The notes beneath the pieces are model-generated. The model was not told where the DNA came from, searched no databases, and saw nothing but the letters and a program-made list of their open reading frames with translations. Below, piece by piece: positions 25,018-58,443 of a DNA stretch of 64,000 nucleotides. Numbering within the stretch: the stretch's first letter is position 1; every line of letters begins with the position of its first letter. The DNA is from Asparagopsis taxiformis (taxonomy: Eukaryota > Rhodophyta > Florideophyceae > Bonnemaisoniales > Bonnemaisoniaceae), in the NCBI GenBank assembly GCA_030407315.1, contig JALQPE010001948.1, positions 124,001 through 188,000 of the forward strand. The letters are read 5' to 3'. Position numbers and translations under genes: made by a program.

Positions 25018-26673
25018 ATGCTTTCTTCCCTGACCTTTCTCTCCCTCCTCGCACTCGTTCTCGCTCAAGGCTTCTTCCCCTGCCATCCCGGTAGAGTGGT
25101 CAACCGCCAAGTCACATGTGAGCGCGTCGTGGTCCCACCCCGCCTCTGCAAACGATGCCCTTTGCGTCCAACCCTCCCCAATGGCCATTTTCAAAAATGT
25201 GATCGTATCTATGACACCGAGTCCGATGATTGTCATCAAGCCCTTGAAGAGTATCTGCAGTACAACGGCGACTGCGATCCCGTTCGAGCCGAGGCCATTC
25301 CCAAGTTGATTAATGAAGCTGACCCCGCTGCCACAAAGCTCGTCGACTACTTCCTCTACTCTATTTGTGAGCAGTGCTGTGATTGTGTGCCCATGGGTAC
25401 TGAAAAGTCAGACTTTATCCAATTGAGCACCGGTCATACCCAGAATAATCCTCGTGTGTGGCGTCCGGATAGGGGCAATTGTCCCGCACACGCCGTGTTT
25501 GATGTTTGCAAAGTTTTGCCCAATGCCGTGTACTTTACCAGCCCCGGAGGTCCGCAACAGCGCGGAGAGCAGGTCTGCCCCATGCTCAGAGAATGGTTGG
25601 ACAGTGATGAGTCTCAACAATGGCAGTTGAACCCGCAGACCAATATTCGGCCTGCAGTTGAAAAATTCCTCAATGGCCTTCTTCATGCAACCGATTGTGA
25701 AAATTTCTCCATCTGGGGCAGCTGCTATGACTTGGAAGACAAGCAGAGTCACCTCGACATTCCACCTGGTTTTGATGTTCCTGCTACGAATCCACCGCTT
25801 ACAACTACGACTACAACAACTACTACAACCACTACCACCACTACCACCACTACCACCACCACCACCACGACCACCACCACAACCACTACTACTACGAGCA
25901 CAACCACCACACCGCAAACTAACCCGCCAAGCACCATATCAATCACCGAGCAGCCACCCACAAGCACGCCGACACCGGACGTGATTCCAGGTCCAGTCGT
26001 GCCAACAAGCACCGCAAGCGCAGTTCCAATCACACCGGAGGAGGAAGACGCCTCCGAAACACCATCTGTGACGCCAACTGTAGAAGCAACCGGTGCATTG
26101 GGCGAAGCGGCAGCAGGCCAAGCCGCATCAGAGAACACGTGCTTCCCATCAAAAGCACGTGTTGAATTACAATCCGGTCAGCATATTGCTATGCATGAGT
26201 TGCAAATTGGCGATAAAGTACGTGTATCCAAGGACAAATTTTCCGAAGTGTTCCTATTTTCACACCGATCATCGACGTCTAGTGCACCATCATATGTCCG
26301 TTTGACTACGCGTGACGGAGACGAACTCGTCGTCACGCACGGTCATTTCATCTACGCCAATAGTCGACTTGTGCCAGCGGAACGGGTCCGCGTGGGTGAT
26401 GTCGTTCTTCGTGCCGACGGTGGCTGGGTCGAGGTGGCTGCCGTTGATGATGTGGTCGCTCGTGGACTGTATAATCCGCACACCGTCCATGGCGATATTG
26501 TTGTGGATGGATTTGTGGTTTCGACGTTTACAACAGCTGTTCCTAGAGGTGTTGCATCGGGTCTATTGGCGCCTTTGAAATTGTTGTATCGATTGGGATT
26601 GGTTACTGAGGATAGTGCGGGCACATTTTTGAAGGAGGGGTATCAAAGTTTTTGGCAGAAGCAGGAGTTGTGA
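25018..26673 (+). CDS. secreted protein with C-terminal Hedgehog-type Hint (Hog) autoprocessing domain
   Basis: 551 aa from the ATG at 25018, signal peptide MLSSLTFLSLLALVLA. Residues about 20-250 form a Cys-rich domain (CPLRPTLPNGHF, CEQCCDCVP, CPAHAVFDVCK) that I do not recognise and that is not a Hedge signalling domain. A mucin-like linker with a run of about 40 Thr (262-302) follows. The Hint domain starts at Cys375 (TCFPSKARVEL), with the T-x-x-H motif in VVTHGHFIYA and HGDIVVDGFVVSTFT near its end, as in Hedgehog C-terminal domains. It should cleave itself before Cys375 through a thioester and may add a sterol or release the N-terminal part to the cell surface. Hint proteins without Hedge domains are known in red algae, choanoflagellates and others. 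AATAAA occurs about 90 bases after the stop. Confidence 0.85.
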   Translation: MLSSLTFLSLLALVLAQGFFPCHPGRVVNRQVTCERVVVPPRLCKRCPLRPTLPNGHFQKCDRIYDTESDDCHQALEEYLQYNGDCDPVRAEAIPKLINEADPAATKLVDYFLYSICEQCCDCVPMGTEKSDFIQLSTGHTQNNPRVWRPDRGNCPAHAVFDVCKVLPNAVYFTSPGGPQQRGEQVCPMLREWLDSDESQQWQLNPQTNIRPAVEKFLNGLLHATDCENFSIWGSCYDLEDKQSHLDIPPGFDVPATNPPLTTTTTTTTTTTTTTTTTTTTTTTTTTTTTTTTSTTTTPQTNPPSTISITEQPPTSTPTPDVIPGPVVPTSTASAVPITPEEEDASETPSVTPTVEATGALGEAAAGQAASENTCFPSKARVELQSGQHIAMHELQIGDKVRVSKDKFSEVFLFSHRSSTSSAPSYVRLTTRDGDELVVTHGHFIYANSRLVPAERVRVGDVVLRADGGWVEVAAVDDVVARGLYNPHTVHGDIVVDGFVVSTFTTAVPRGVASGLLAPLKLLYRLGLVTEDSAGTFLKEGYQSFWQKQEL

Positions 26674-31673: not shown

Positions 31674-31802
31674 ATGACTTCGTCCAGGTGGAAATGCAGT
31701 CAATTAAGAAAGGGAGTAGGCAATGAATTTGCAAAGCAGGATGGTGGTAAGAAGAGGTTGAGAACTTCTAAGAAGGAGTACAGCTGTGGAGGGATCTGTT
31801 AA
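31674..31802 (+). other. possible N-terminal exon of the MULE transposase
   Basis: ATG at 31674 opens a 42-codon frame rich in Lys/Arg (MTSSRWKCSQLRKG ... KKEYSCGGIC) that stops at 31802, overlapping the start of the transposase frame. It looks like the beginning of a DNA-binding zinc domain continued in the next frame, so either a short intron or a frameshift separates them. Confidence 0.4.
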
Positions 31803-33546
31803 TATTTGCTATGGAAGGCAGAGGAAGCTTAAAGTGAGTATTTCCCATGTACTATGTCATGAAAAGCCACAGTCATCACTTTTGATGACAGATGATGTGC
31901 GGAAGGCAATTTTAAAGATGGTGGATACTGGACTTTCACCTTTTCAAATTGCAATGCAACTGCGATCAGAGTTTAATGAGCCATTCAAGTACATGACCAT
32001 TTACAATATGTGGAGTGAACACATTGGATCTAAATTTCGAACCAGCAGAGATCCAATGGAATCAGCATTATCGTTTGTCAATAATGCTGATAATGTCAAG
32101 CTCGTACTGCACCTTTCGAACCCTTTTGCACTTGGAGTAGTTACTTCAATAGGCAACCAAATTTGTACCGAAATGAACATTGCTGAAGTGTTCATTGATT
32201 CCACTTATAAGACGAACTCTATGAGGCTTGAATTGTTCGCGATCATTGGGTCTGTGTTGGGTTCCGGCTTTCCTATTGCCTATCTACTTTTAGAAGGAGG
32301 GAGTGGAAGTACACTCCGCTCCAGACAGCAGTCTATTTCGGCATTTCTCCAAGCCGTTATATCAAAGCTCCCTGACCTTTGTCCAACATTTTTCTTCACG
32401 GATAAAGACTGGGGACAAATTAACGCGATTAGAAACGTCTTTAATATGCGTCCATGTATTTTTTTGTGGCATATGAAGCGCGCGATTAATCGCAAGCTGA
32501 ACACCCTGCGCAGAAGTGGAGAGAGATTAATACAAGGGAAGGAAGATGAATTGCTCCGACTAGTTTCTAAACACTACAATTATCATCCTTTCATTACGCC
32601 TCATTACAATTTGGAGAATGCTCTTCAATCTGCAAGAAATGACTTGGATTCATTTTGGGAAGGAATGGAGGAGTCCCAAATGAATTCTTATCTACTAGAA
32701 AATTGGTATTCCGACGAAGGATTCTTGATGTGGGGGAGACGGAATATGGGAGAAATTTCTATTGCGAAGACGACAATGATGGTCGAGGCACATTGGTCTA
32801 GATTGAAACGTATTTACTTACTGCCGTATAATCGTCCAAGATGTGACTTTTTAGTCTATGTACTATGTGCGAAGGTTTTACCACGTTTGTCTGCCGATTT
32901 TGAGCTGCTTTGCTCTGGAAAAAAGAAACCGGCCTGGTGGACAAACTTTGTCGCAGAATGGAATCGATCTTCAGTACTGCTACCGTCTCATTCATACTCT
33001 ACCAACCGACTACAGTGGACTTGCACATGCGAGAGTTTCCTAATGAGCCCATTTTTGCTTTGCAAACATCTGACATTTGGATTATCATGCCCGCAGTATC
33101 GTGATGTTCTGCGGAGTAGATCCCCCCCGTTCCTTGTCATTCGAAGACTTGAGAACTGTTTCAGAGCTAGCATCACTAGAGAGGACAAAGACCGTCAATC
33201 ACCATCAGTGAGCGTAGATCAGCGGACACATCCTGTCAGTAGCTCTATGATTCTGGGCCCAATTCTACCTCCAGCCAACTTTCAGGACACGTCCTGTTCA
33301 ACCACCCCTGATGGACAAGATTTGACCCATTCCAACACTGTCACTGAATTAGAAGAGATCCTCTCTTGGGGAATTACCCACGTGCGGGAGTTAGCAAGTA
33401 ACTCCTTTGCAACCCAACAGATCAATCATCTGTACAACACTGTGCTGGCACGTTACAGGAAGTACTACAAAAGAGTTACTGCGAACTTAAATGCTCATAT
33501 CACACCTCGCACATTTGAACACCCAGACGTAGTCTTCCTGCCATGA
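31786..33546 (+). CDS. MULE transposase with SWIM zinc finger
   Basis: The frame is open from 31762; the first in-frame ATG is at 31885 and the true start may lie in an upstream exon at 31674. The N-terminal 100 residues hold a Cys/His region (ICYGRQRKL, VLCHEK) typical of MULE DNA-binding domains. The core is the DDE-type MULE domain: FIDSTYKTN (first Asp), LFAIIGSVLGSGFPIAYLL, FFFTDKDWGQINAI (second Asp) and LWHMKRAINRKL. Near the C-terminus a SWIM finger reads CTCESFLMSPFLLCKH (C-x-C-xn-C-x-H). The frame is intact from there to the stop. It cuts and pastes the element by acting on the terminal inverted repeats. Whether the protein is still active depends on the 5' end. Confidence 0.85.
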   Translation: MEGSVNICYGRQRKLKVSISHVLCHEKPQSSLLMTDDVRKAILKMVDTGLSPFQIAMQLRSEFNEPFKYMTIYNMWSEHIGSKFRTSRDPMESALSFVNNADNVKLVLHLSNPFALGVVTSIGNQICTEMNIAEVFIDSTYKTNSMRLELFAIIGSVLGSGFPIAYLLLEGGSGSTLRSRQQSISAFLQAVISKLPDLCPTFFFTDKDWGQINAIRNVFNMRPCIFLWHMKRAINRKLNTLRRSGERLIQGKEDELLRLVSKHYNYHPFITPHYNLENALQSARNDLDSFWEGMEESQMNSYLLENWYSDEGFLMWGRRNMGEISIAKTTMMVEAHWSRLKRIYLLPYNRPRCDFLVYVLCAKVLPRLSADFELLCSGKKKPAWWTNFVAEWNRSSVLLPSHSYSTNRLQWTCTCESFLMSPFLLCKHLTFGLSCPQYRDVLRSRSPPFLVIRRLENCFRASITREDKDRQSPSVSVDQRTHPVSSSMILGPILPPANFQDTSCSTTPDGQDLTHSNTVTELEEILSWGITHVRELASNSFATQQINHLYNTVLARYRKYYKRVTANLNAHITPRTFEHPDVVFLP

Positions 33547-34503: not shown

Positions 34504-34629
34504 TGTTGAATGTTCGTCGTTGGATGCTCATGCATTTTATTGTTTGATCGTCGTCCTTGAGACGGTTTAAATACTCTTGCTAGTGTACTGTAATTGGATA
34601 TGCTGTAATGTTGGGATGATCATCCGACA
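34504..34629 (-). repeat. copia 3' LTR (126 bp)
   Basis: Starts TGTTGAATG and ends CATCCGACA; same length and sequence as the copy at 39651-39776. On the minus strand it follows pol. No polypurine tract of usual quality precedes it. Confidence 0.95.
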
Positions 34630-37600
34630 ACGAGTCTTGCTGGGCACGGTGCGGAGAAGGTTTGATCATCCGACAGTCGCCGCGCGCCGTGTCCGGCGAG
34701 AGTCGGAGTTGTGAGATATTGTGGCGATATTGAGCCGGCTTTAACGCTTTTGTGAGCATGTCTGCTGCATTCTTTTGTGACGGTGTATATTCTAGTTTGA
34801 CTTGTTTGCGGTTAATGAGTTCTTTCAGGAAATGGTATTTGACGTCAAGGTGTTTTGATTTAGGCGTAGGGTGGTCCGTGTTTGCCGTTGTAATGGCACT
34901 CATGTTGTCCATGTAAATTGTGGTTGGATTGTTTTCAGGATGTCGGAGATCGGCCAGTAAGTTTCTGATGCATAGGACATGTTGTCCGGTGTGATAGCCA
35001 GCCACGTACTCGGCTGCCCATGTGCTGGGTGCGATGAATCGTTGGCGTTTTGATTGCCATGCTATAGGTGAGCCATTATAAGTTATATATGTTCCAGTTG
35101 TGGACCGTCTTGTGTCGGCACAGGCTGCGAAATCGCTGTCTGAATATGCCTCGAGGTTTGATGTGTGTTTTGAGGAGTAGGATATGCCTTGTTCTTTCGT
35201 GCCGCTTAGATATTGAAGGACTCGTATTGCAGCAGTCCAGTGAGATTGTTTTGGTTTGTGTGCAAAACGACCAAGGTAGCCGGTGATGAATGCAATATCT
35301 GGCCGAGTTGAGTCAGCCAAATACCGCAGACTGCCGATAAGGCCGTGATAGTTGTGTATCTTTGTGTCCAGGGGTTTGTCATTGTCTGTTTGGGATAGTA
35401 ATGTGGATGCCATTGGTGTTGATGCCGGTCTGCAGTTTTCCATACCGAACTTGTGAAGTATTTGTGATATATAGGCTGGCTGTGAGATAGTTATAGACTC
35501 GGGTGTGCGTACTACTTTCCATCCCAGTATGTGATCGACTGGGCCCAAGTCTTTAAGGAGATACTTGGTTTGAATATGTTGTTTAGCGTGGTCGCGTAGT
35601 TCGGAGTCATTGGAAATGACTAGGAAATCATCCACGGTGATGACGAAAAATACGAATTTGCGTGCGTCAGTTGTTGACGTTAATAAATACGTGCTACTGT
35701 CACTTGAGAGTCGAGTGAAGTTGGTCAGCTGAAGGTGTTTAGAGAGTCCTTGAGAGAATATGTGGCATGCCTGACGTGCGCCGTACATATTTCCAGTGAG
35801 TTTGCCAACGCAACCGGGATACTTTATGGTTCCATCGAAGCGCGGGGGCTGATGAATGTATATTGTCTGGGAGTCGTTGAATGATTCGTGGAGAAACGCT
35901 GCTTCTAAATCCCAATGGTGCGCGTCATATCCGTGTGCAGCGGCCAATGCGAGAGCGACGCGTATTGCATCACGATCTGCGACGGGGGAGGATATGGAAT
36001 CAGGGTCGTAATGTTCATGTGGTTTCTGGAGGTCGCCGCGAACGTTGCAGCGTGTTTTTCTGGATATGGGGTTGCCATTAGAATCTGTCTTAGTTTTTAG
36101 CACTGTTTTGTAGGGGAGAATTTTGGTTGTTGGTGGTATGGAGGAGCGTGGAACATATGTAATCGTGCCTCTATGTTCGAGGTTATCGAGTTCTGCGTTC
36201 CATGACTTTGCCCATTCCGCACTATCGGGCGCATTGCGGGCTTCAGAGAGTGTTTTGGGTGATGTAAACGTAGGGTGCGGAAGGAGTTGTGCTGTATGAT
36301 GTGCTTGGTATGTGTGTGGATGGGTTGGTATCGTTTTAGTCGGGTCGGTATGCGGATCATACAGCTTGAAGTCGTGAACCCTGCATCGTGACACTGTGCA
36401 GGTAGATTTGTCGTATACATAGTAGTGATTGGCATCATAACGACCTATGTATTGCAGTAATGTCGCTCTGGGTTGCAGTTTGGTGAGGGGCTGGCGGTTG
36501 TAGACGAAACCAGATTGGCCAAATGGGAGAAAATTTGAGACGTCGGGAATGGAATTAGTCCAGAGTGATATGGGAGTTTGGCCATGGGCTGAATGGGGGG
36601 CGTGATTGTGATGCTCAGTGGCGGCGCGTAGTGCATAATCCCAGAGGTGGTGTGGCAGTTTGGAGGAGTGGAGCATTGAGCGGACAGTTTCTAGAAGAGT
36701 TCGGTTGACTCTTTCGGCTAAGGAATTCTCTTGCGGTGTATAGGGTGTGGTGGGGTGCGTAGCGACATGATTTTGGTTGTAGAAGGTTTGGAGGTCTTTG
36801 GAGAAGTATTCGCGGCCATTGTCCATGGTGATGTCAGTTATGCGATATGGGGTAGTGTGGTGTATATGTGATATGAAGTCTTTGATGTATGCTGCCGCCA
36901 GATTTTTGCGTGGTGCAATGTGAACATGGAGGTATCGGCTGAATTCGTCTATGAACGTTGCAAAGTATAGGTTTTTGTCGAGGGATTCGACTCGAAATGG
37001 CCCGCATATGTCAGTGTGGATGTGGGAACACAGAGAGGCTATACGTGGTCTGGAATGGAAAGGGGCTGACACTTGTTTACCGACTGCGCATCCAGTGCAG
37101 GTAATTTTTGGCGGTGGTTCTTTCAAGGTATTGGGGAGGCCAGTGACAAGTCCTTTGATGGCTAGTTGATGGATGCGTGAGGGGTGTAAGTGGCCAAGAC
37201 GAAGGTGCCAATTATGATAGTCCTGGACAGTGCGTGTGTGTGGTTTTTGTAATACAATTGAAGGTGTGACTTGCTGTGTGGGCATTGGTTGAAGTGTCTT
37301 GTTAGTGTGTGTGGCAGGGGCGATGTTTTGTGTTCGTGGAAGAGACCGGGAAGGGGTGGGTTGGGAGGGTATCGAAAAGGGTTTAGTTGACGGGGATGGC
37401 GAGGGTGGGCTAGCAGTTGGTTTGGTGCGGTTTACCTGTATAGCGGTGGTAGGTTGTTGCGTATTTGTTCTGCGTGATGAGGGACTGGGGTTGAGGATGG
37501 TTCTTTGTGGAGGGGGTAGACGCTTGCTGGGAGGTTGACGGAAATTAGAAGGCGGGATATGGGAAACGCGATTTTTAGTGCGTGCGATATGGCGTGTTGC

Positions 37601-37957
37601 AGCGCGGAATGGTTTGGGCACGGTGGTGTGTGGCCTCTGGGATGTGTTCCGCGGTTGTGTAGGGGTTTGCCAGAGGTATCCGGCGGTCGAAGAGTGCGTA
37701 TGCCATGACATTGGGAGATAAAGTGGGTTGTGGGGGGTCTTTTGGTAGTATGTGAGTGGTCGCGTTTGCGCTTGATGCCACGAGTAGTAGTGAGGAAATA
37801 AAGCCCGTTTTGTCTTGTGGCTTTGGCTTGGGTGATCCCTGGGGGTGGAGGAGGTTGTGGCCTTGTTATGTATGCAGCTTGTTTTTGGAAAACAACATCG
37901 TGATTGGATGTGAGCTGGCCTACTGAAAGGAGGTTGTGAGGTGCGTTGGGGAGACAT
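34580..37957 (-). CDS. copia pol: integrase, reverse transcriptase, RNase H
   Basis: 1,125 codons from an ATG at 37957, but the first roughly 230 codons overlap the gag frame and are Ser/Thr/Pro-rich, so real pol probably begins by frameshift from gag-pro. Order of domains: integrase zinc motif (WHLRLGHLHP ... CTGCAVGK), integrase core with HTDICGPF, MDNGREYF and the Glu in AERVNRTLLE; reverse transcriptase with WDLEAAFLHE and the catalytic VDD (ITVDDFLV); RNase H with YSDSDFAA, YMDNMSAI and KHLDVKYHFL. All catalytic acids are present and there is no internal stop. The 3' end of the frame runs into the LTR. Pol lies at -1 relative to gag. Confidence 0.92.
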   Translation of the reverse strand: MSPQRTSQPPFSRPAHIQSRCCFPKTSCIHNKATTSSTPRDHPSQSHKTKRALFPHYYSWHQAQTRPLTYYQKTPHNPLYLPMSWHTHSSTAGYLWQTPTQPRNTSQRPHTTVPKPFRAATRHIARTKNRVSHIPPSNFRQPPSKRLPPPQRTILNPSPSSRRTNTQQPTTAIQVNRTKPTASPPSPSPSTKPFSIPSQPTPSRSLPRTQNIAPATHTNKTLQPMPTQQVTPSIVLQKPHTRTVQDYHNWHLRLGHLHPSRIHQLAIKGLVTGLPNTLKEPPPKITCTGCAVGKQVSAPFHSRPRIASLCSHIHTDICGPFRVESLDKNLYFATFIDEFSRYLHVHIAPRKNLAAAYIKDFISHIHHTTPYRITDITMDNGREYFSKDLQTFYNQNHVATHPTTPYTPQENSLAERVNRTLLETVRSMLHSSKLPHHLWDYALRAATEHHNHAPHSAHGQTPISLWTNSIPDVSNFLPFGQSGFVYNRQPLTKLQPRATLLQYIGRYDANHYYVYDKSTCTVSRCRVHDFKLYDPHTDPTKTIPTHPHTYQAHHTAQLLPHPTFTSPKTLSEARNAPDSAEWAKSWNAELDNLEHRGTITYVPRSSIPPTTKILPYKTVLKTKTDSNGNPISRKTRCNVRGDLQKPHEHYDPDSISSPVADRDAIRVALALAAAHGYDAHHWDLEAAFLHESFNDSQTIYIHQPPRFDGTIKYPGCVGKLTGNMYGARQACHIFSQGLSKHLQLTNFTRLSSDSSTYLLTSTTDARKFVFFVITVDDFLVISNDSELRDHAKQHIQTKYLLKDLGPVDHILGWKVVRTPESITISQPAYISQILHKFGMENCRPASTPMASTLLSQTDNDKPLDTKIHNYHGLIGSLRYLADSTRPDIAFITGYLGRFAHKPKQSHWTAAIRVLQYLSGTKEQGISYSSKHTSNLEAYSDSDFAACADTRRSTTGTYITYNGSPIAWQSKRQRFIAPSTWAAEYVAGYHTGQHVLCIRNLLADLRHPENNPTTIYMDNMSAITTANTDHPTPKSKHLDVKYHFLKELINRKQVKLEYTPSQKNAADMLTKALKPAQYRHNISQLRLSPDTARGDCRMIKPSPHRAQQDSLSDDHPNITAYPITVH

Positions 37958-39402
37958 ACTGCTTGAGGTATGTTGAATGTTGTGTCGTTGTTAACACGGA
38001 TGGTGGCTGGTCCTTGATGTGTTGTGAGCGTATGGTCGCCGTTGGCCGTTATGGAGGGATTGGTGTGTGGGGTCATAGTCGGTTGTGGGTGACGTAAATG
38101 CGTCGGTATAGCGCCAGAGTCCAGTAAGTATGAAGAAGTGGAGGAGCCATTTATTGTACTGTCTGTCATATTTTGTTCATGCTGGTAATCGGATGATATG
38201 TGGGTGCCGTCATCCTGTTGTGGTAGTGGTGACGCATGGGAGGACTGTGGTAATTGGTATATGGTCGGTGGTGTGTGAGGCGCGATGACGTAGTGGGGTT
38301 CGGTGCTGTGGATAGGTGAGTGCATATAGTGCGGAGTGTAGTGATCCATGTTTTGGGGAAGTGAGGCTACGGCATGTGCGTTGTGAGTTGCACGAGCCGT
38401 TTTGTTGCGCGCATTTTGTTTCTGAAGGAGATTTCGTCTGGTGTAGCAGGATAGAGTTGAATGGGTCGCGGTGCCGTGGAGGGTACACCATTGGCCGTGG
38501 TAGCCATGCGGGGCGGGAATATGTGTGGCAAGCGTGGGTCTTGGTTGTGTTGAGGTGTATTTCGGTTTGTGTTGTGCTCGGAGTGATGGGTACCACTGGT
38601 GGCGGGGGAGGGGGGTTGTGTTAGGTTGATAGGGCGGTTGGGACGGAGGGGGGTAATGGGGTGTGTGAGGGTTGATCGATTGGTATGTCGGTGAGGGAAT
38701 TTGGTGTGGTGATGAGGGAGTGTGGGGTGTGGGAGTAGCTTTTTCATGCTCTACAAGCATGTTATAGACGAGTTCCAGGGATGGACGTCTTCCGTCGTGA
38801 AAGTTGTGGAAGTTGGCCAGTTCTCTTAGTAGAGAGTACCATTCGGGGAGGTGATGCAAACCATTTAGGACGAATTGTATGGTTGTTTGGTCGTCATCAA
38901 TGTTTGGGAATGCGGAGTGTAACATGATGTCACGTAGCTCATTATGCTGATCGATGTAGTTTTGGATAGGAGTTCCAGGTTTGTGCTTTAGCTCGTTTGC
39001 TCGTCGCCGGAGGTTTGCTTCAGAATGTTGAGGAGGTATTATTGATAACTTGTCCTTGAGGTAGTGATAGAGGATAGTTGGGGGGCTGTTGAGGAGGGTG
39101 GGGCTGATGGTCTTGAGGATGTCTTGTGAGAGGTGTGGGAGTATGAGCAGCCTGGTGAGTGCGATCTTGTGATGGTGTTCGTGGAGAGCGATTGGATCGT
39201 CAGGGGTAGGCGGTTGTGGGCCATGAAGGTAGGGAAGGAGATTGTGGATAGTTGCTAAGCTGTCCACAGTGTGGATCCATTGTAAGAGGTTGTTGTGGGT
39301 GAGTGGGGGTATGTCGAAATGGGTGGGGGTGGGGAGGGAAAGGGATGGGAGTGTGGAGGGTGCGGTGAGAGGTTGATTGGGTGGAGAGGGTGGTTGTGTC
39401 AT
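37432..39402 (-). CDS. copia gag and protease
   Basis: 656 codons from the ATG at 39402, 248 bases inside the 5' LTR edge. Residues 1-240 match the copia capsid region (NNLLQWIHTVDSLA, RANELKHKPGTPIQNY). A zinc-knuckle variant is at Cys306, His309, His314, Cys319 (C-x2-H-x4-H-x4-C instead of the usual CCHC). The aspartic protease motif D428-S-G-A (LLDSGA) follows, then NLLSVGQLTSNHDVVF, the usual link to integrase. The frame ends at 37432 within the segment overlapped by pol. In most copia elements gag and pol are one frame; here protease is fused to gag and pol is in the -1 frame. Confidence 0.88.
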   Translation of the reverse strand: MTQPPSPPNQPLTAPSTLPSLSLPTPTHFDIPPLTHNNLLQWIHTVDSLATIHNLLPYLHGPQPPTPDDPIALHEHHHKIALTRLLILPHLSQDILKTISPTLLNSPPTILYHYLKDKLSIIPPQHSEANLRRRANELKHKPGTPIQNYIDQHNELRDIMLHSAFPNIDDDQTTIQFVLNGLHHLPEWYSLLRELANFHNFHDGRRPSLELVYNMLVEHEKATPTPHTPSSPHQIPSPTYQSINPHTPHYPPPSQPPYQPNTTPLPRHQWYPSLRAQHKPKYTSTQPRPTLATHIPAPHGYHGQWCTLHGTATHSTLSCYTRRNLLQKQNARNKTARATHNAHAVASLPQNMDHYTPHYMHSPIHSTEPHYVIAPHTPPTIYQLPQSSHASPLPQQDDGTHISSDYQHEQNMTDSTINGSSTSSYLLDSGAIPTHLRHPQPTMTPHTNPSITANGDHTLTTHQGPATIRVNNDTTFNIPQAVCLPNAPHNLLSVGQLTSNHDVVFQKQAAYITRPQPPPPPGITQAKATRQNGLYFLTTTRGIKRKRDHSHTTKRPPTTHFISQCHGIRTLRPPDTSGKPLHNRGTHPRGHTPPCPNHSALQHAISHALKIAFPISRLLISVNLPASVYPLHKEPSSTPVPHHAEQIRNNLPPLYR

Positions 39403-41453: not shown

Positions 41454-42509
41454 ATGCCTTTGTCACGTACGGCCGTTATAGCAAAGTCGCCACCTCTTCG
41501 AATATCACGCACTCAGATCTCAACCGCGATTTACATCACAGTACTCGTATCTGCGCTCTTCCCTTCTCAGTTGTCTCCAAACTTGCCACAACCCTTGAAT
41601 CCGCAACAAGACTACGAAACGCGGCTCGAAAAAGCCATTGCCAACGGCCGCCAACCGCCAACGCACAATTATCTTCGCTGGCTTCACATTCCGAAAACCG
41701 GCACGTCGTTTGCAAACACTCTTATTCGATGGGGTTGTACAAACCTGTCCGCAGCAACAATCGTGCGACCGCGAAAAGAAGTCCCTGAGGGACTCGTGCT
41801 TCCCGACGGTCCAAACCTTTCCTGGGACTGGCTATTCACGAATAAGTCAGGCCGTGATTGGATGCTGCACCATTGTAATCATCGTCTTGTGACACATCGA
41901 TCAGGCCGATACTACTTTTCGTTTATGGTCCACAAAGCGATTGAATCGTGGGAAAGAACGTACACAGCGTCTTTTTTTAGATTGCCGTTGCAAAGGACGT
42001 TTAGTAACTACGAACATCTCAGTCGCCATTACAACGCTTCCAGAGCACCGAGTATGTCATTAGAGCAGTTTTTGAACCGCAGTGAGTTTTGGTCCCAGCA
42101 AACGAAAATGGTACTCGGCTATTCTTACAAAGTGACTGATGTAATGTCCAAAGCAGATGCGTATGAAGCCGCGGAGATTGTTCGCTCACAGTTGGGCTTT
42201 GTGGGATTGACCGAGCATTTTCAATTGTCCATTCGCTTGTTCCACGCCAAATTTGGCGGTGTACCTCATCGCAATCAGTTTATCAACGTGCGTCCCGGAA
42301 TGTCGCGATATGCCGCGCCGCGCGCATTGGCAAGCGATTTTCGGTACGATGAGACGGTTTTTGCAGATTGGCGCGATGTACCTGACGATATACTTTATGA
42401 GGCCGCGAGGCGTCGTTTCTGGAGTGATGTTCGTCAATTTAAGCATCAGATTGAGTTGGACGCGCTTGGGCCGGTTGATATCGTACCTACCCGCAGAGTT
42501 GATTTATAA
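41454..42509 (+). CDS. carbohydrate sulfotransferase, type II membrane
   Basis: 351 aa from the ATG at 41454. A hydrophobic stretch near residues 24-36 (IYITVLVSALF) is a signal anchor. Residues 78-86 (HIPKTGTSF) are the 5'-phosphosulfate loop binding PAPS, and FRLPLQRTFSNYEHL is the 3'-phosphate site with its Arg and Ser. The remainder (SLEQFLNRSEFWSQQ ... FVGLTEHFQLSIRLF) is the usual ending of Golgi carbohydrate sulfotransferases. It would transfer sulfate from PAPS to hydroxyls of a galactan or similar polysaccharide, a central reaction in red-algal walls. It follows a fucosyltransferase-like gene head-to-tail with 77 bases between, so the pair may serve one pathway. Acceptor unknown. Confidence 0.85.
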   Translation: MPLSRTAVIAKSPPLRISRTQISTAIYITVLVSALFPSQLSPNLPQPLNPQQDYETRLEKAIANGRQPPTHNYLRWLHIPKTGTSFANTLIRWGCTNLSAATIVRPRKEVPEGLVLPDGPNLSWDWLFTNKSGRDWMLHHCNHRLVTHRSGRYYFSFMVHKAIESWERTYTASFFRLPLQRTFSNYEHLSRHYNASRAPSMSLEQFLNRSEFWSQQTKMVLGYSYKVTDVMSKADAYEAAEIVRSQLGFVGLTEHFQLSIRLFHAKFGGVPHRNQFINVRPGMSRYAAPRALASDFRYDETVFADWRDVPDDILYEAARRRFWSDVRQFKHQIELDALGPVDIVPTRRVDL

Positions 42510-50007: not shown

Positions 50008-51201
50008 CTACTCCAAGCGTATCGAGAATACTTTCTGAGCACTGTTTCCATCCCGCCCAGTTGCGGAAACTTTGATTTCAAATGTCCGGCCAAAGATTGG
50101 TGATGGCCAAGCGTTGTATTCATTCTGCATATTGTCATCTCCCCAAAATGCATAAGGAACTTCAAGTTCATTACGAATGAAATTTCCGTCCAAGTAAAAG
50201 CCCACAGACTGAACGGCACCTTGAACCCATGCGACAAAAGAGATACGCTCATTACGACTGGACAGTTTCACAGCGGAAAAGTGTGAATCTAACATTGCCA
50301 GTTTCTCGCCATTGGGTGCTCGTATCAATATAAGCTTGTTCACCTTCACCATTCTATCCTCCTGTCCTCCCTGAACTGGAGACGGAACGCCGGGCGGAGG
50401 CAAAGCTTCTCTTTGAGGAGAAGAGTCAAACCAGGAAGTTTCTATCGCTGGCGGTCGGCGGTTATGAGCAAACTGGGCTGGCACCAGGTCTGCTTTTTCG
50501 TAGCCAAAACACGGCTCTCGACGGCACATCCCCAGTCTGTTTGTCGAAGCCGGGCAAGTGCTGTTGCTCGTGAGATTTTCGCCTGGAATAAAGCGCGGTT
50601 GGTAGCTGCTCGTCATCCTGCCGCCACGAATGACTATTGACGAACAACTATAATAGTCACCGTAATTGGAATCCATGTGCAACGTGCCACCGTACCACGC
50701 CCACCCAAGAATGTAATCACCGTCTGGATACGAGGTTGGAATTTCTACCCTAGTTGCATAAGCCATGGACGCATCGTCAGTGCCACAATTTCGATCGGTG
50801 CACTTGTGGAGGTCTGACTCGAAGCAGGCGTACCGAAAGGTGAGCTGATTGTGCGCGGTTGCATTCATTCTGAGATTGTTAGGCACGAGACTGAATCGGA
50901 CGAAACCGCCTATATGATTGTTCCTGGACCACACCATCGAGACGATCTGTCCTCGTTTGTACACCGTGGGTTGCTGTTGAGAGTTGTATTGGTAGCTTGA
51001 CGTGGCGAAACAGGGCCCCGGACAATTGTCATCAGGGGCGTGGGGCGGACCTCCCATTCGACATTCGGGCTTGCTGAACGACTTGAAGTCGCCTCTGGGT
51101 TTGAGCAAGAAGCTGTGCGCGGAAGACGGGGAATGGGTGTACGTGAAAAGCACGAAGAAAATGGTGAGAGAGGGGATGAGTGGGATGGAATTTGTCGGCA
51201 T
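50008..51201 (-). CDS. secreted LPMO-like protein A (two-domain)
   Basis: 397 aa from the ATG at 51201. An in-frame ATG at 51267 exists, but the TATA box at 51299-51308 would leave it without a leader, and the signal peptide (SIPLIPSLTIFFVLFTYTHS) is at the start only from 51201. Cleavage SSA|HSFLL makes His29 the N-terminus. The core has CRMGGPPHAPDDNCPGPC, a second conserved His (NNHIGGFVRFSLVP), CGTDDASMAY, YPDGDYILGWAWYGGT, and GDYYSCSSIVIRGG with conserved Cys. A second domain of about 100 residues (GFYLDGNFIRNELEVPYAFWG) is Ig-like and shared with gene B. N-terminal His plus second His matches the copper histidine brace of lytic polysaccharide monooxygenases; the named AA family cannot be assigned. 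First of four tandem copies. Confidence 0.68.
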   Translation of the reverse strand: MPTNSIPLIPSLTIFFVLFTYTHSPSSAHSFLLKPRGDFKSFSKPECRMGGPPHAPDDNCPGPCFATSSYQYNSQQQPTVYKRGQIVSMVWSRNNHIGGFVRFSLVPNNLRMNATAHNQLTFRYACFESDLHKCTDRNCGTDDASMAYATRVEIPTSYPDGDYILGWAWYGGTLHMDSNYGDYYSCSSIVIRGGRMTSSYQPRFIPGENLTSNSTCPASTNRLGMCRREPCFGYEKADLVPAQFAHNRRPPAIETSWFDSSPQREALPPPGVPSPVQGGQEDRMVKVNKLILIRAPNGEKLAMLDSHFSAVKLSSRNERISFVAWVQGAVQSVGFYLDGNFIRNELEVPYAFWGDDNMQNEYNAWPSPIFGRTFEIKVSATGRDGNSAQKVFSIRLE

Positions 51202-51298
51202 TGTTATGTTTTGGTGGTTATGCGGATGCCAGTGGTTGACAGATTGGTGAGGTTTGGTTTGTGACATGAGAGTCGGTTGGGATATCGAATGTTGGCTG

Positions 51299-51308
51299 CT
51301 TTATAACT
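51299..51308 (-). promoter_or_regulatory. TATA box of LPMO-like gene A
   Basis: Minus-strand TTATAAAG. It is about 100 bases before the ATG at 51201 and only about 32 before the upstream ATG at 51267. Confidence 0.55.
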
Positions 51309-52780
51309 GGCTTCTGTTGCATGATTGTCAATGCCACAGAGAATGCACGACATCATGATGCGAAATACCAGTTTGATTCTTCACGCGCGCAGTTTTGAGG
51401 TAGGTTGTGCGTCGCAATGAGTTCTTCCAGTTTTGTTTTGAGGTGTAGGGATGGTTGTGATAGCATTTGGGAACCGCAGCTGTTTGATGGGAACTGTTCT
51501 GTCATGTTTGGCAACACAGATTCACGACACACCGCCCCACTATTTCGCGGGTGGAGAAGAAGTAGAAAGATGGGAGATAAGCTGTTGGTGACCACCAGTT
51601 TTTGGTAGGACTGTTGGTTGGTATGGCGCGGAAAGTCACCTAAGACGGCAAGCACTGGAGGAAATGTGCAATTTAACGATTTGAATGATTGGTATCAGCG
51701 CAACTGCAAGGGAATATGTTCTGATCGCACTGAACACAAAGTTGGTGTTGGGTGGGAACATGCGGGAAAGTCTCGACTCACGCTTTTCATGATTGAAGTA
51801 TTGCTTCGAACCGGATGGGTAACGATGCTGGAGGTCGCGTTGGTATCGCTTGATGATGCATAGGCCAGAAAATAATTTTTCATTTTCATAGGTCTTATTC
51901 TCTTCATAATGGGCAGCACTCTGAAACATTTTACATCTCTCTGACGGACATGAATGATAGCCGCTGCAAGGAGATAAACCTCACCTCTGAACTAGTGTTG
52001 GCAAAGCAGCCTCTGCTATGGATTCAGAAACGGTTCAAGTGGTCCTTACTCAAAACACGTGATATCCAACATGAAAGTGGTGCATGTAGCATGTCCGAGT
52101 TATTTGAGTGGAACAATTTAATGGGCATCGAGACTTGGCAAAAGTTGGTCGTAATTTAGCGATGCACGACCACACTCGAGACAGGAGTTGTGAGGCAAGT
52201 TGCATGATTTCCATCTTGTTTCCAGGGCAAGGACACACGTTCTTCATCGCCACACGTATCATGTGTACATTGAAAGCGTTTGTGACTCAACCCTTATCTA
52301 GTCTCGCGTACTATTAAATTACAGTGGTTGTCCTTGTCGGTACATACTGACGTGGAACGAACGTTACATTAGTTGTATAGCCCGATGTATCCTTCATACC
52401 TTCACGTCTATTTCAACGAGTTGACAGCACTTTGTTTGATCGAAGATAGCTTGGAAGGTAGACTGCCGCGGATCTTATTCGTGGTTAGGAAGCTATGAAC
52501 TAGACAACTGGTTATGAAGCGTTTTTATATTCCTCATTTTACCAAGTTTTTAAAAATTAAAAAATGCACTAAATTGAAACATTTCCTGGGAGATCGTGAT
52601 CGCTGCCAAATTAGAAACAAACGTCTATCGCGTGAAGTGACGCGTTCAACCTCATATACAACCTCTAATTCGTTTTCCGCCACCCTTGTTCTATCCAAAC
52701 TGACGTTGCGCTTACTTTCAGCCATGCTTGCAATCTCCATCTCCCCCCAGATGCTACCGATAGCCAACCGGTAGCGTACA
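51309..52780. other. intergenic between LPMO-like genes A and B
   Basis: The largest gap in the cluster, about 1.5 kb. No gene or gene fragment recognised, on either strand. Confidence 0.5.
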
Positions 52781-53968
52781 TTACAAGTTTCTGCGCCTTC
52801 TCAGATACATCCAGAACACTTTGTAATGTTTAGTCCCATTATCGCCAGAAGCTTCCGCACGAATACTAATCCATCTGTCGAAAATTGGGTTTGGCCATGC
52901 GTTATAATCGCCATTGATATCACCCCAGAACGAGTATGGTACATATCTCTCCGTGCGAATCCACCTGTCATTCAGATAGAAACTAACAGATGCCACGGGT
53001 CCTTTTGTGAGCGCCACAAACGTGATAGGCTCGTCCTTGCGTATATGAACCGTTCTGAACGATGCAGTAATTGGAGCGCCAGTTTCTGCATTGATCATAA
53101 CCATACCTGTGACACGCACCGGCCTTCTCCTAGCTGCACCTTGTCCTGGCGATGGTGACGGAGACATGGACGGCATAGGAGTGGGTGATATAGAGCTTTC
53201 ATTGAACCATTCGGATAGAATTGGAGCTGGATGTCTGTTTTTCGCAAATTCAAACGGCACCATTTGCCTTTCTTTCTTACCCAAACAAGGCTCGCGACGA
53301 CAATCTCCCAGTCGATTGGTCGCAGCCAGACATCTGGACGCACCACCGAGACGTTCACCAGGGATAAACCTCGGCGAAAAACTGGTCGTGAACGGGCCTC
53401 CTCGAATACGAACGGGCGAACAACTATAATAATCGCCAAAAATCGAATTGCTCTGCACAGTGCCACCATACCAAGTCCAGCCAAGAACGTACTCACCATC
53501 GGGATAAGTCGTAGGAATCTGAACCATCGTCCTATACGCACTTGCATTTCTATCCGAGCCGCACGGCCTGCCTGCACATCGATGCTTGTCGGACACATAA
53601 CAGGCGTATCGAAAGGCCATGACGGCATGCGCGGTACGATTCATGCGTTGATTGCGCGGCACAAGACTGAAACGCACAAAGCCGCCGCGATGATTGTTCT
53701 TGGCCCAAACCATCGACACGTTCTGGGCGCGCGCATAGACGGACGGCTGCTGACGACGGTCGAGCTGCCAGCTATCTGGGGCGATGCACGGGCCGGGGCA
53801 GTTGTCGTTGGGCGCGTGCGGGGGGCCGCCGAGACGACATTCGCCCTTGTTGAACGACTTGAAGTCGCCCTTGGGGCTGAGCAGGAAGCTGTGCGCGGCG
53901 ACGCGGGGCGGCGACGAGCAGAACAGGAGGCAGCAGAGGACGAGTAGTTGGGCTTTGAGATGCGTCAT
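52781..53968 (-). CDS. secreted LPMO-like protein B (two-domain)
   Basis: 395 aa from the ATG at 53968. Signal peptide MTHLKAQLLVLCCLLFCSS with cleavage VAA|HSFLL, so mature residue 1 is His26. Core motifs in order: CRLGGPPHAPNDNCPGPC, KNNHRGGFVRFSLVP (second His), CYVSDKHRCAGRPCG, YPDGEYVLGWTWYGGT, GDYYSCSPVRIRGG, and CLAATNRLGDCRREPC. After a Pro/Ser linker the C-terminal domain (SFYLNDRWIRTERYVPYSFWG) is the same extra module as in gene A. Expected substrate: a wall polysaccharide bound on the outside of the cell. Copper binding is inferred from the two His only. Confidence 0.7.
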   Translation of the reverse strand: MTHLKAQLLVLCCLLFCSSPPRVAAHSFLLSPKGDFKSFNKGECRLGGPPHAPNDNCPGPCIAPDSWQLDRRQQPSVYARAQNVSMVWAKNNHRGGFVRFSLVPRNQRMNRTAHAVMAFRYACYVSDKHRCAGRPCGSDRNASAYRTMVQIPTTYPDGEYVLGWTWYGGTVQSNSIFGDYYSCSPVRIRGGPFTTSFSPRFIPGERLGGASRCLAATNRLGDCRREPCLGKKERQMVPFEFAKNRHPAPILSEWFNESSISPTPMPSMSPSPSPGQGAARRRPVRVTGMVMINAETGAPITASFRTVHIRKDEPITFVALTKGPVASVSFYLNDRWIRTERYVPYSFWGDINGDYNAWPNPIFDRWISIRAEASGDNGTKHYKVFWMYLRRRRNL

Positions 53969-54024
53969 TGCGCGTTTGGATTATGGTGCTTTATGGTGAC
54001 GGTGGGCTCATCGCGTCGGGCGCG

Positions 54025-54032
54025 TTCTTATA
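54025..54032 (-). promoter_or_regulatory. TATA-like box of LPMO-like gene B
   Basis: Minus-strand TATAAGAA about 60 bases upstream of the ATG at 53968. Confidence 0.55.
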
Positions 54033-54385
54033 CATGGGTGGTGGTTGATGACGGGTCGAGATTGCAGATGTGGTCGCGGTCGGGATGGAAGTTTCATGTC
54101 GGTGCGTGCGACGATTGCGTTGTATGGAGTTGGAAACTGGAGTGGTTTTCGTATTGCGTGGCGTAATAGTATATGCGATTAAAAGCGTTCAATTCCCAAA
54201 CTTGTTTTGCTAGAAACAATCACGTCGCGTAGTGTTTGTGCGCTGGCACTTGTCATATACCACTAATAACGAGCTAACTACCAGTTACATAGCGCGCTCA
54301 GTGGAATGTAATCTCCGCCCAAACTCAACAATACAATTTACGCACTTGCCCATCTCTACACACACCATCTTGTCTACACTACTAC

Positions 54386-55153
54386 TCAATTCAACCAATA
54401 GTCACGAATCGCCGCTGGCTTCTGACCATCCCGAAACTCGTCCGGAACGCGCTCCGTCTCATAGTGCGTATCACACGGCTCCTCACGACACACCCCCAAT
54501 CTTCCAACCGCCGACGAGCATGTCTCCTTATCAATACCCTCACCGGGAATAAACCTCGGCTGATAACTCTTCGTCTTCTTCCCACCCCGAACGATAATCC
54601 TCGCGCAACTATAATAATCACCAAACCCGTACTCATTATACGTCGTGGCACCGTACCACGCCCAGCCGAGGATATACTCACCATCCGGATGCGTCGTCGG
54701 AATTTCGACCATAGCCTTGTACGCCATGCCGTTCAAATCGGTGCCGCAGCGGTCCTCGCGACATGTGTGCATCCCTGAATCATAGCACGCGTATCGGAAC
54801 GCGAGTCGTTGGTGCGCTCCCTTGCTCATTCGGTGCTTGATCGGCACCAGACTCAAACGGACAAAACCGCCCGTGTGCTGATTGCGCGCCCAGACCATCG
54901 GGATTTCCTCGCCGCGTCGCACGACCATCGGCTCGCCGGTGCGGTCCACCCACCAGTCGCCAGACGTGTCGTAGCACGGGCCCGGGCATTTGTTGTCGTT
55001 CTGGAAGGACGGCCCGCCGATGCGGCACACGGCGATCCATTCGGGGTTGCGGTCCGCGATGGGGCGCAGGAGATAGCTGTGCGCGTGCACATGGGGGAGA
55101 AGGTGCGCCAGGGCGAGAAGCACGAGTGTGAGTGTGGTGGCTGTGGTGGTCAT
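54386..55153 (-). CDS. secreted LPMO-like protein C (one-domain)
   Basis: 255 aa from the ATG at 55153. Signal peptide MTTTATTLTLVLLALAHLL with cleavage VHA|HSYLL, mature His25. It keeps the core only: CRIGGPSFQNDNKCPGPC, ARNQHTGGFVRLSLVP with the second His, CREDRCGTDLNGMAY, HPDGEYILGWAWYGAT, GDYYSCARIIVRGG and the Cys-rich end CREEPC. It lacks the C-terminal Ig-like domain of A and B. The brace His positions are kept. It is the third of four copies on the same strand, and the two one-domain genes (C and D) are adjacent. Confidence 0.7.
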   Translation of the reverse strand: MTTTATTLTLVLLALAHLLPHVHAHSYLLRPIADRNPEWIAVCRIGGPSFQNDNKCPGPCYDTSGDWWVDRTGEPMVVRRGEEIPMVWARNQHTGGFVRLSLVPIKHRMSKGAHQRLAFRYACYDSGMHTCREDRCGTDLNGMAYKAMVEIPTTHPDGEYILGWAWYGATTYNEYGFGDYYSCARIIVRGGKKTKSYQPRFIPGEGIDKETCSSAVGRLGVCREEPCDTHYETERVPDEFRDGQKPAAIRDYWLN

Positions 55154-55217
55154 TTTGGAATGGGAGCGATGTGTCGGAGTAGGGGTGGGTTTGGGAAGGG
55201 GTGGGGTGGGGTGGGGG

Positions 55218-55225
55218 TTTTTATA
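55218..55225 (-). promoter_or_regulatory. TATA box of LPMO-like gene C
   Basis: Minus-strand TATAAAAA about 65-70 bases upstream of the ATG at 55153. Confidence 0.6.
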
Positions 55226-55979
55226 GGGAAGATATTTGTGATGGGCGGGAAAGAGATGACTTGTTAGACGAATTGAAGTTGTGCGTTGGAATGATGTGTT
55301 TGTATGAAAATAGATGGTGGGATGTTTGGATTTGACGAGTGTTGTAGGGACATGATGTACGAAACGTGTCGAATGGCGAGTTGTTACGCGGATCGAGGCC
55401 CGGATTGTGTTTGTCAGATGGTGTCATCGAAGAGGACTGGACGGTGCTTAGGGAAAGCTCAACGTGGCTCTTGTGTACCGCATGACGTGCAGGAAGGGGA
55501 ATTGAGCGATATTAGACTTGGCAATGCGCAGGGAGCAATGCTATGACATGTGTCGCTCAAAATTGGATGGCAAAGGGATGGTATACATGAGTGAGATACG
55601 TTTCCCCGAGCATGATGTTTGGATTTGACACGGGCTACTCCGACGCGCCCCGAGTCATGTGTCACATCAAGTGTCAGGAAGATGGTATATCAAATTAAAT
55701 CAGTAACTTAATTGACGCAATGGTATTTTAATTGCATCGTGCTGCAACTACGTCATCAAATAGCACGAGACGTATCGCGCTTCAATTCAATTGCGCGGTG
55801 GAAAAGTGCAACGTGGCCGAACATCTTCTCGTTTGATCGATCTTTCCAATTGCTTGCTTCCAAGATGCATCCGTCCTCCGACACCTCGTTATGATCCGTC
55901 TGCACTCCCCCTTCGTTTCTAATCTACGCATCTGCCATATGTAAAGACTATGCACAATGTCAATGTTTATCAACCAAAC
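55226..55979. other. intergenic between LPMO-like genes C and D
   Basis: No gene recognised. Confidence 0.5.
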
Positions 55980-56741
55980 CTACTCAAACCAAGAAGCCTG
56001 TAGAGGCGCTTTCTGTCGTCCATTTCTAAACTCCGCCGGCACACGACTCTTGAGCTCAATCTTGCCGCGACACGGTTCGCTGGGGCACACACCCAATCGG
56101 TCCGTACCCGACATACACGAGCCGCGACCATCATCCGTGACAAATTTGGGCTGAAAAGTGTTTGTCTTCGGCCCGCCACGAATCACAATATTAGCGCAAG
56201 TATAATAATCACCAAATCCAAATCGATTCCCAATCGTACCGCCGTACCACGCATATCCCAGCAAATATTCCCCATCCGGATACGTAGTCGGAATCTGCAC
56301 CTCGGTACGATACGCCATCCCGCGTTTATCCGTGCCGCATCGACGTAATCGACATTTGTGCTCGCCCGATGTGAAGCACGTATAATGAAACGCCATTTGC
56401 GCATGCGTTGCCTTGCTCATGCGTTTGTCGTGCGGCACGATTGTAAATCGTACAAATCCACCTTTATGTCCATTCTTGGCCCACACTAATGTCGCTTTCT
56501 CCCCGCGACGATACACCATCGGTGGTACGCGTATCTGGTTGTTTGAAAACACCGACGGGTTGAGACACGGCCCTGGACATCTGCCTCGGTGCCCGAACGA
56601 AGGCCCGCCAATGCGACAGAAGCCTGTCCAGGTCGGCGTGAGGTACCCAGTCGGACGCAGTAGGTAGCTGTGCGCTTCCGCGCGGCGTAACGCCACGATG
56701 AACAGGGCGAGGGTTAGCATGCGTTGCAATGTTACAATCAT
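55980..56741 (-). CDS. secreted LPMO-like protein D (one-domain)
   Basis: 253 aa from the ATG at 56741. Signal peptide MIVTLQRMLTLALFIVALRR with cleavage AEA|HSYLL, mature His24. Core motifs: CRIGGPSFGHRGRCPGPC, AKNGHKGGFVRFTIVP (second His), CFTSGEHKCRLRRCGTD, YPDGEYLLGYAWYGGT, GDYYTCANIVIRGG, ending in the same CPSEPC region. One-domain like C, and closest to it. The conserved Cys pattern suggests at least three disulfides. The most upstream member of the array, with the clearest TATA box. Confidence 0.7.
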   Translation of the reverse strand: MIVTLQRMLTLALFIVALRRAEAHSYLLRPTGYLTPTWTGFCRIGGPSFGHRGRCPGPCLNPSVFSNNQIRVPPMVYRRGEKATLVWAKNGHKGGFVRFTIVPHDKRMSKATHAQMAFHYTCFTSGEHKCRLRRCGTDKRGMAYRTEVQIPTTYPDGEYLLGYAWYGGTIGNRFGFGDYYTCANIVIRGGPKTNTFQPKFVTDDGRGSCMSGTDRLGVCPSEPCRGKIELKSRVPAEFRNGRQKAPLQASWFE

Positions 56742-57681: not shown

Positions 57682-58443
57682 TCAATGGTCCGATATATTC
57701 ATCACCAAGTTGTACTCGGCAGCCATGCAGTTGTTCAACACCCTCCGATATGACATTGCCGGAAATTTCTGTCTCACATAACTCAAAATAGCGCCACAAT
57801 CGTTGGCGCTGAAATACAGAGGCGTCGAAACATTATATTCCTGACATTCAACCTGGAGACGTCTCACAGCAACACCTGGCAAGTTTTCAAATACGTCCTT
57901 CACGATAGCAAAATCACTTCCCTGCGCATCAATTTTCAGCAGATTGATGCTGTCCACATTCATTTCGCGCAAAACAGAACTCAGCCGACGCACTGTCACC
58001 CGAGTCGCTCGCAATTTGTTCGAATGCATGCATTTAAACAGCCGTGATCGCTGGAAAATAACGTCGCCACATCGCGACCGAATACGATCACTTTGCAAAA
58101 CACGGTCGTACGCCTCGTTGCGCACGTTGATCGAACTGCAGCCAGGCTCCTCGTCGTTGACATAAAATGTTGCAAATCCATCGAAATCCGATATCACATA
58201 CGGATATCGCAACAATGAGTCGGATATATATCGTGTATCCGTCGGATCAAATGTAATTAATTTCGACGCCGTCGACGTTATTGTTTTCCCATTCGTACCT
58301 ATGTCAATATCGACTTGGACTCGCTCCACAGTTGCCGACCGTACCTGCATTGGTAGAAGCAAGTAGCATAGTGCCGCGATACTCGTCACAAGCGCCAGTG
58401 ACAGAAATGGCGAAGTTTGTCGTTTGGCAAGAACCGCAACCAT
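57682..58443 (-). CDS. FkbM-type (Methyltransf_21) methyltransferase, membrane-anchored
   Basis: 253 aa from the ATG at 58443. A signal anchor (FLSLALVTSIAALCYLLLP) precedes the catalytic part. The strongest motif is INLLKIDAQGSDFAIVKDV (about residue 168), the FkbM pattern LLKID-x-(E/Q)-G where the acid/amide after ID helps bind the methyl donor. Earlier CSSINV and a Cys-rich stretch match the middle of the family. It would methylate hydroxyls of a sugar or glycan from S-adenosylmethionine in the Golgi. Given the polysaccharide genes nearby, methylation of a wall polymer is a reasonable guess, not shown. Confidence 0.72.
   Translation of the reverse strand: MVAVLAKRQTSPFLSLALVTSIAALCYLLLPMQVRSATVERVQVDIDIGTNGKTITSTASKLITFDPTDTRYISDSLLRYPYVISDFDGFATFYVNDEEPGCSSINVRNEAYDRVLQSDRIRSRCGDVIFQRSRLFKCMHSNKLRATRVTVRRLSSVLREMNVDSINLLKIDAQGSDFAIVKDVFENLPGVAVRRLQVECQEYNVSTPLYFSANDCGAILSYVRQKFPAMSYRRVLNNCMAAEYNLVMNISDH

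Follow-up and report, generated by a model that had tools for sequence, protein, structure and literature searches.

Among the lytic polysaccharide monooxygenases (LPMOs), family AA11 stands closest to the genes considered here; its listed structures (AoAA11, 4mah/4mai; AfAA11B, 9exj/9hdg; and 7p3u, titled chitin-active) come from Aspergillus or other fungi. Two further groups invite comparison: AA9 (PF03443) and the AA10/AA15-type enzymes of PF03067. An earlier report places AA15 LPMOs in Rhodophyta (PMC5823890), a precedent that corrects the picture of red-algal LPMOs in a preliminary description of the present locus. That locus is a tandem array of four genes of the red alga Asparagopsis taxiformis, within a stretch of 64,000 nucleotides (the window) taken from contig JALQPE010001948.1 (internal label C1824; 124,001-188,000) of an assembly of 141.5 Mb in 3156 contigs. 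The array probably comprises old tandem paralogs of an unnamed LPMO family with a putative copper brace, acting on extracellular polysaccharide. The computed support consists of the secretion signal, the fold, the conservation of three candidate ligands and purifying selection; copper, redox activity, substrate and biological role are what we infer.

A tandem array of four secreted proteins

The array consists of four open reading frames (ORFs), found at exactly the positions at which the preliminary description had placed four same-strand genes; every one is on the minus strand, a detail added here (Table 1). Each opens with a hydrophobic signal peptide in which position -1 is Ala and position -3 is, from gene 1 to gene 4, Ser, Val, Val and Ala. 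Assigned by eye with the -3/-1 rule, the predicted cleavage sites read SPSSA/H, PRVAA/H, PHVHA/H and RRAEA/H (cut at the slash), so the first mature residue is His in all four, as had been proposed, and the mature N-terminus is His-Ser-[Phe/Tyr]-Leu-Leu. In gene 1, Met23 is by eye an alternative start that gives a shorter signal peptide. Alignment of the four proteins bore out the second conserved His (mature residue 68 or 69), the GDYYSC/GDYYTC element and the remaining motifs of the preliminary description, which here read N-x-H-x-GGFVR, CR-x-GGP, CPGPC, IPT-x-x-PDG-x-Y and GDYY[ST]C. Since genes 2, 3 and 4 are 54%, 47% and 44% identical to gene 1, the four are paralogs and not four independent observations. 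Genes 1 and 2 alone continue through a linker into a second immunoglobulin-like (Ig-like) domain, of a type seen on cellulases and related enzymes, which the preliminary description did not contain.

Table 1. Coordinates of the array genes, their C-terminal modules and the candidate ligand codons (window positions)
Feature	Position	Strand	Details
Gene 1: secreted two-domain protein, 419 amino acids	50008..51267	-	His1 codon 51115-51117; second His 50914-50916; axial-Tyr candidate 50653-50655
Gene 1 C-terminal Ig-like module, residues ~300-419	50008..50370	-	From alignment; retrieved by gene 2 module at E 6.1e-21
Gene 2: secreted two-domain protein, 395 amino acids	52781..53968	-	His1 codon 53891-53893; second His 53690-53692; axial-Tyr candidate 53429-53431
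Gene 2 C-terminal Ig-like module	52781..53131	-	
Gene 3: secreted single-domain protein, 255 amino acids	54386..55153	-	His1 codon 55079-55081; second His 54875-54877; axial-Tyr candidate 54614-54616
Gene 4: secreted single-domain protein, 253 amino acids	55980..56741	-	His1 codon 56670-56672; second His 56466-56468; axial-Tyr candidate 56205-56207

Predicted fold

The gene 3 protein was modelled with a mean predicted local distance difference test (pLDDT) score of 93.4 and a predicted template-modelling (pTM) score of 0.91, and the two-domain protein of gene 2 with values of 90.0 and 0.70. When the structural neighbours of the gene 3 model were re-aligned, all 50 rows of the list were LPMOs, aligned from residue 1. 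The predicted domain is an Ig-like/fibronectin-like beta sandwich of LPMO type, so that the fold anticipated in the preliminary description stands for the model. AA14, AA16 and AA17 do not appear in this VIA-align list of 50, although their absence is no proof against them; the nine matches returned by Foldseek include 7ze9, an LPMO-like protein of AA16.

Family extent and residue conservation

A six-frame search of the genome with gene 3 gave 27 matches, 25 of them without an internal stop, which by our own reading represent about 18 family loci once identical, near-identical and partial copies are set aside. One of these loci (C826:11346-12086, L032) has three in-frame stops and Tyr in the second-His column and is likely a decayed copy. 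An identical member is found on four contigs (C2071, C2300, C2965 and C2966), perhaps through a recent segmental duplication or as an assembly duplicate.

Outside this genome, a profile of genes 1-4 matched 122 proteins at E<=0.001, of which 120 were listed (P0001-P0120). Among the matches listed, ten have a named source: nine come from red algae (Gracilariopsis, Gracilaria, Agarophyton and Pyropia, with lineages looked up for Gracilariopsis chorda and Pyropia vietnamensis) and the sole other from the chytrid Borealophlyctis nickersoniae (P0118). A red-algal origin of the window is the natural reading of these names and of the 13 phycobilisome-domain matches in its genome, 11 of which lie on contig C469. 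A second profile, made from seven distant members and scored against only the 7992 candidates with the most shared words, retrieved 64 proteins, 59 of them new (P0121-P0179). These 59 form a second large clade, mostly on contigs of 1-2 kb, and a chitin-binding module is listed for three of them. Across the 64, a CBM18-type (PF00187) or ricin-B model was found in five, two of which were seeds of the profile. Family members also occur in metatranscriptomes. The suggestion of a distinct red-algal LPMO group holds in so far as an LPMO fold is predicted and the window proteins stay below the Pfam cut-offs of AA9 and AA10/AA15, while the chytrid and metatranscriptome members take the family beyond red algae.

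In a family alignment of 111 rows, the first column is His in 90 of the 91 rows that cover it, the lone exception (P0053) being a gene model that starts downstream and has no signal peptide, and the second His is kept in 111/111. The pattern of the two His residues is beyond chance because of these counts. A second count used a hidden Markov model of the 231 mature columns of gene 3, in whose numbering Tyr156 is the first Tyr of GDYY, and covered P0001-P0120 (set 1, 123 domain rows), the 59 new proteins (set 2, 59 rows) and the genome (27 rows). The His1 column holds 94 His and 29 gaps in set 1, 56 His and three gaps in set 2, and 24 His and three gaps in the genome. For the second His the figures are 119 His and four gaps, 59 His, and 24 His with one Tyr, one Ala and one gap; the genome rows departing from His are C826:11346 (three stops), C2018 (one stop) and a partial match on C587. 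The Tyr156 column has 104 Tyr, two Phe, one Asn, one Asp and 15 gaps in set 1, and 59 Tyr in set 2. By eye, four of seven rows inspected for a missing His1 or Tyr156 (P0057, P0081, P0087 and P0092) are gene models that apparently leave the true frame. A further candidate, His90, was rejected as a general copper ligand: it is present in 113/119 rows of set 1 and replaced by Phe in 58/59 rows of set 2. Two paralogs (C2689:57610-58287 and C779:18129-18842) have CTNACPD for CPGPC and DWYSC for DYYSC, which puts Trp at the axial column. Together, the fold, the exposed His1, the second conserved His and the axial aromatic residue fit an LPMO.

Relation to AA11 and AA9

An unlikely alternative to a new family is that the array is a diverged offshoot of AA11 or AA9, both of which are already listed. 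AA11 is the best match by both structure and sequence profile. With gene 3 alone, the best match to Protein Data Bank (PDB) sequences reached only E 0.35 (7p3u). A 50-row profile gave 11 matches at E<=10, of which nine were LPMOs (three AA11 and six AA9-type; best 9exj, 0.0011) and two were not (3pdd, through its Ig-like modules, and a chain of afadin at E 9.9). The six matches of a 111-row profile were 9exj (1.8e-4), 4mah (8.5e-4), 7p3u (5.8e-3), 3pdd (0.039), the AA9 protein 8b7p (0.041) and a coiled-coil protein (E 5). Both profile alignments place the leading Tyr of GDYY opposite the Tyr of Y-M-N-C-A in AA11, the axial copper ligand there (Tyr140 of AoAA11). However, the significant match to AA11 sequences is confined to part of the domain, starting near mature residue 120, identity in the structural alignments is 15-19%, and the named members of the window family are mainly red-algal whereas the listed AA11 structures are fungal.

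As for AA9, the Pfam model is touched by 12 of the 111 members at E<=0.01 (best 1.4e-4), but the window proteins (best 15.2 bits) and their relative P0091 (22.0 bits, E 1.7e-4) stay under the cut-off of 27.8 bits. A search of the genome for AA9 gave no match at E<=0.1, which says little since no control genome gave one either. The chytrid protein P0118 touches AA9 (E 0.0017) and DUF7492 (E 0.0032), and by sequence DUF7492 may be a further LPMO-like family.

LPMOs of PF03067 in the same genome

The genome also holds eight matches to PF03067 (LPMO_10) above the cut-off (loci L009-L016). Six of these proteins, at six loci, have a signal peptide, an N-terminal H[GA]..xxPxQRG, an invariant His117 (mature numbering of L009) and the motif P-[EQ]-E-[FY]-x-x-C. 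They resemble the window family in being secreted, with His1 and an invariant second His, but differ at the N-terminus, which in the window family reads HS[FY]LLxP. The PF03067 proteins of the genome score 38-53 bits with that model (42.6-53 bits for five of these six when rescored); for the window proteins the Pfam search listed no PF03067 at E<=10. The window proteins reach the gathering score of neither PF03443 nor PF03067, in agreement with the misfit to AA9 and AA10/AA15 patterns that the preliminary description had noticed, and the PF03067 LPMOs of this genome belong to another family than the window genes.

One of them, L011 (1084-2319, minus strand, contig C2351), carries a C-terminal Ig-like module related to that of genes 1 and 2. 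The comparison relied on is hhalign (E 2.6e-9 over 68 columns); in pairwise BLAST the gene 2 module matched at E 3e-6 and the gene 1 module at E 0.014, at an unrelated place. Both gene 2 and L011 touch Pfam Big_7 below its cut-off. A search with the C-terminal module alone found one protein, P0003, already a family member, and no new fusion.

Weighing the assignment

Several observations weigh against a separate LPMO family with a copper brace. Identity to solved LPMOs is 9-19% in the listed rows of the structural alignments, and the Foldseek template-modelling scores by query are low (0.31-0.41, nine matches). At the axial column the 27 genome rows hold 23 Tyr and four Trp. The second His meets the His of 7p3u only within a stretch of -0.3 and -2.0 bits, which is statistically unsupported. 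Profile-profile comparison links the window family to PF03067 at E 3.6e-6 and probability 87.5, a weak and setting-dependent result; with first-sequence columns it gives E 0.0012 and probability 19.7, against controls of 0.89 (reversed) and 0.013 (best of 30 column shuffles). The signal is thus weak yet above controls, with the same strand lined up. In the five of six hhalign settings that align the region, the second His lies one column before His117 of PF03067, and in a global alignment with the PF03067 LPMOs His1 is paired with Lys and not with His1. Given the one-column offset, an exact pairing of the second His with the PF03067 His was rejected; in the global alignment, Tyr156 is paired with the F/Y of the PF03067 E-[FY] motif. 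LPMO-like copper proteins that have the brace and no polysaccharide activity have also been published (PMC13353379).

This last point underlies another explanation, in which the array encodes LPMO-fold proteins of the X325/Bim1 kind or TrsA-like oxidases that bind or buffer copper or make hydrogen peroxide (H2O2) at the cell surface. As published, TrsA/Egh16-like proteins, X325 and other brace proteins share secretion, a His brace (putative here) and an Ig-like fold with the window family; such brace proteins occur in fungi (PMC13353379), TrsA being a fungal protein (PMC12377627). The axial position also varies in some paralogs. We nevertheless regard this explanation as improbable, given an axial Tyr in 104/108 covered rows of set 1 and 59/59 of set 2, the relatives with CBM18-type or ricin-B modules, and the cellulase-type Ig-like module of genes 1 and 2, which suit a carbohydrate enzyme. 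In addition, the proteins of genes 3 and 4 lack, as judged by eye, the hydrophobic C-terminal tail required for the glycosylphosphatidylinositol (GPI) anchor of an X325/Bim1-like protein. Signal-strapping was set aside as a match, as PMC12537917 concerns bacterial proteins of other kinds.

Pfam and NCBIfam gave no model above cut-off on the window proteins. The family was not found in the open-licence literature (including the available parts of PMC5823890, PMC13353379, PMC13431639, PMC12537917, PMC12377627 and PMC9771727), a scope outside which CAZy and the subscription literature lie. Because of these two results we call the window genes a new family within a known kind, not a new kind. There is a small chance that CAZy already lists the family under one of its newer numbers (from AA18 on) or that it has been described elsewhere. 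Santos et al. 2025 is said to deal with the cupin enzyme CelOCE. In the portions available, the 2026 literature names AA families up to AA18 and does not describe the window family, and one 2026 paper credits the AA18 range to Santos et al. 2025; no red-algal LPMOs of the window kind were found in the open-licence literature. Finally, a generic Ig-like sandwich protein with a coincidental N-terminal His is disfavoured as highly improbable: Ig-like folds are common, and antibody and receptor chains appear lower in the Foldseek list, but LPMOs fill the re-aligned list from residue 1 and both His residues are kept across divergent relatives.

Evolution of the array

A FastTree tree of 126 tips was built after dropping rows with fewer than 180 of the 231 columns and merging identical rows, with nine of the 59 set-2 proteins included. 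P0001 falls beside genes 3 and 4, and P0002, P0003 and further copies from the genome cluster with genes 1 and 2; the smallest clade that holds all four has 34 tips (support 0.826). Synonymous divergence (dS) is near saturation for genes 1 and 2 (2.8, with a ratio of non-synonymous to synonymous divergence, dN/dS, of 0.11) and for genes 3 and 4 (1.35, dN/dS 0.29); dS was not computable for three of the ten gene pairs tried. The array looks older than a recent duplication because of its placement in the tree and this near-saturation. For both P0002 and P0003 the longest contig listed has 6078 bases, a hint that another alga may have a similar gene pair.

Viral origin or spread was considered and rejected: scanning viral contigs with the family alignment gave 30 pattern matches and, by tblastn, no relative among them. 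The two top named viral structure matches, at ranks 1 and 4, are a fusolin-like protein and a chitin-binding type-4 protein, both from LPMO-like families.

Other features of the window

Beside the array, at 57682-58443 (minus strand), lies an FkbM-type methyltransferase domain (PF05050, E 1.9e-8), a possible sugar methylase. An ORF at 41454-42509 (plus strand) with the motif HIPKTGTSF is carbohydrate sulfotransferase-like by eye and has no Pfam family at E<=0.001. The secreted-looking protein at 25018-26673 (plus strand) contains an extended run of Thr and, at its C-terminus, a Hint module (PF01079, E 5.3e-25); at locus L010, the ORF adjoining the PF03067 LPMO also ends, by eye, in Hint-like sequence. 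Mobile elements appear to be present as well, again judged by eye: two overlapping long ORFs at 34580-39402 (minus strand) resemble the gag and pol genes of a retroelement of the Ty1/copia type, GC skew being strong from 36 to 40 kb of the window, and a 586-residue ORF at 31786-33546 (plus strand) looks like a transposase of the MULE type that includes a SWIM-like zinc finger.

Proposed function

Under the preferred reading of a new LPMO family, cleavage of the signal peptide would expose His1, whose amino group and side chain, together with the second His, would form a copper histidine brace on the Ig-like sandwich, with the first Tyr of GDYY at the axial position. For this site the fold is taken from prediction, the Tyr from the AA11 alignment and the second His from conservation, while the copper is a matter of inference. 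Once reduced, the copper would react with H2O2 or O2 and attack C-H bonds in a polysaccharide outside the cell by oxidation. The accessory CBM18-type and ricin-B modules fused to some relatives suit carbohydrate surfaces. In a photosynthetic alga the likely target would be the wall of the alga itself (cellulose, xylan/mannan or galactan fibres) as it grows, fuses its cells or releases spores; alternatively, it could be the wall of an invader, for example its chitin. A chitin synthase was discarded as a pointer to chitin, as the lone PF03142 match has an in-frame stop and the profile also matches 4/14 control genomes including E. coli.

A search that ignored introns matched GH16 domains four times, on three contigs; the window family has about 18 loci by comparison, and oxidation could for this reason be a main route of wall loosening. 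A more specific and tentative proposal, which we consider rather doubtful, is that a family expanded in red algae cleaves the alga's own sulfated galactans or galactan-embedded fibres, as an oxidative wall-loosening system that outnumbers the GH16 hydrolases and works beside the PF03067 LPMOs. The Trp-axial paralogs on C2689 and C779 offer a natural test of axial-ligand changes. The family would enlarge the small set of LPMOs and supply candidate enzymes for seaweed polysaccharides, and with about 18 loci of this LPMO-like family in a single alga, oxidative self-remodelling of a wall would become open to direct testing.

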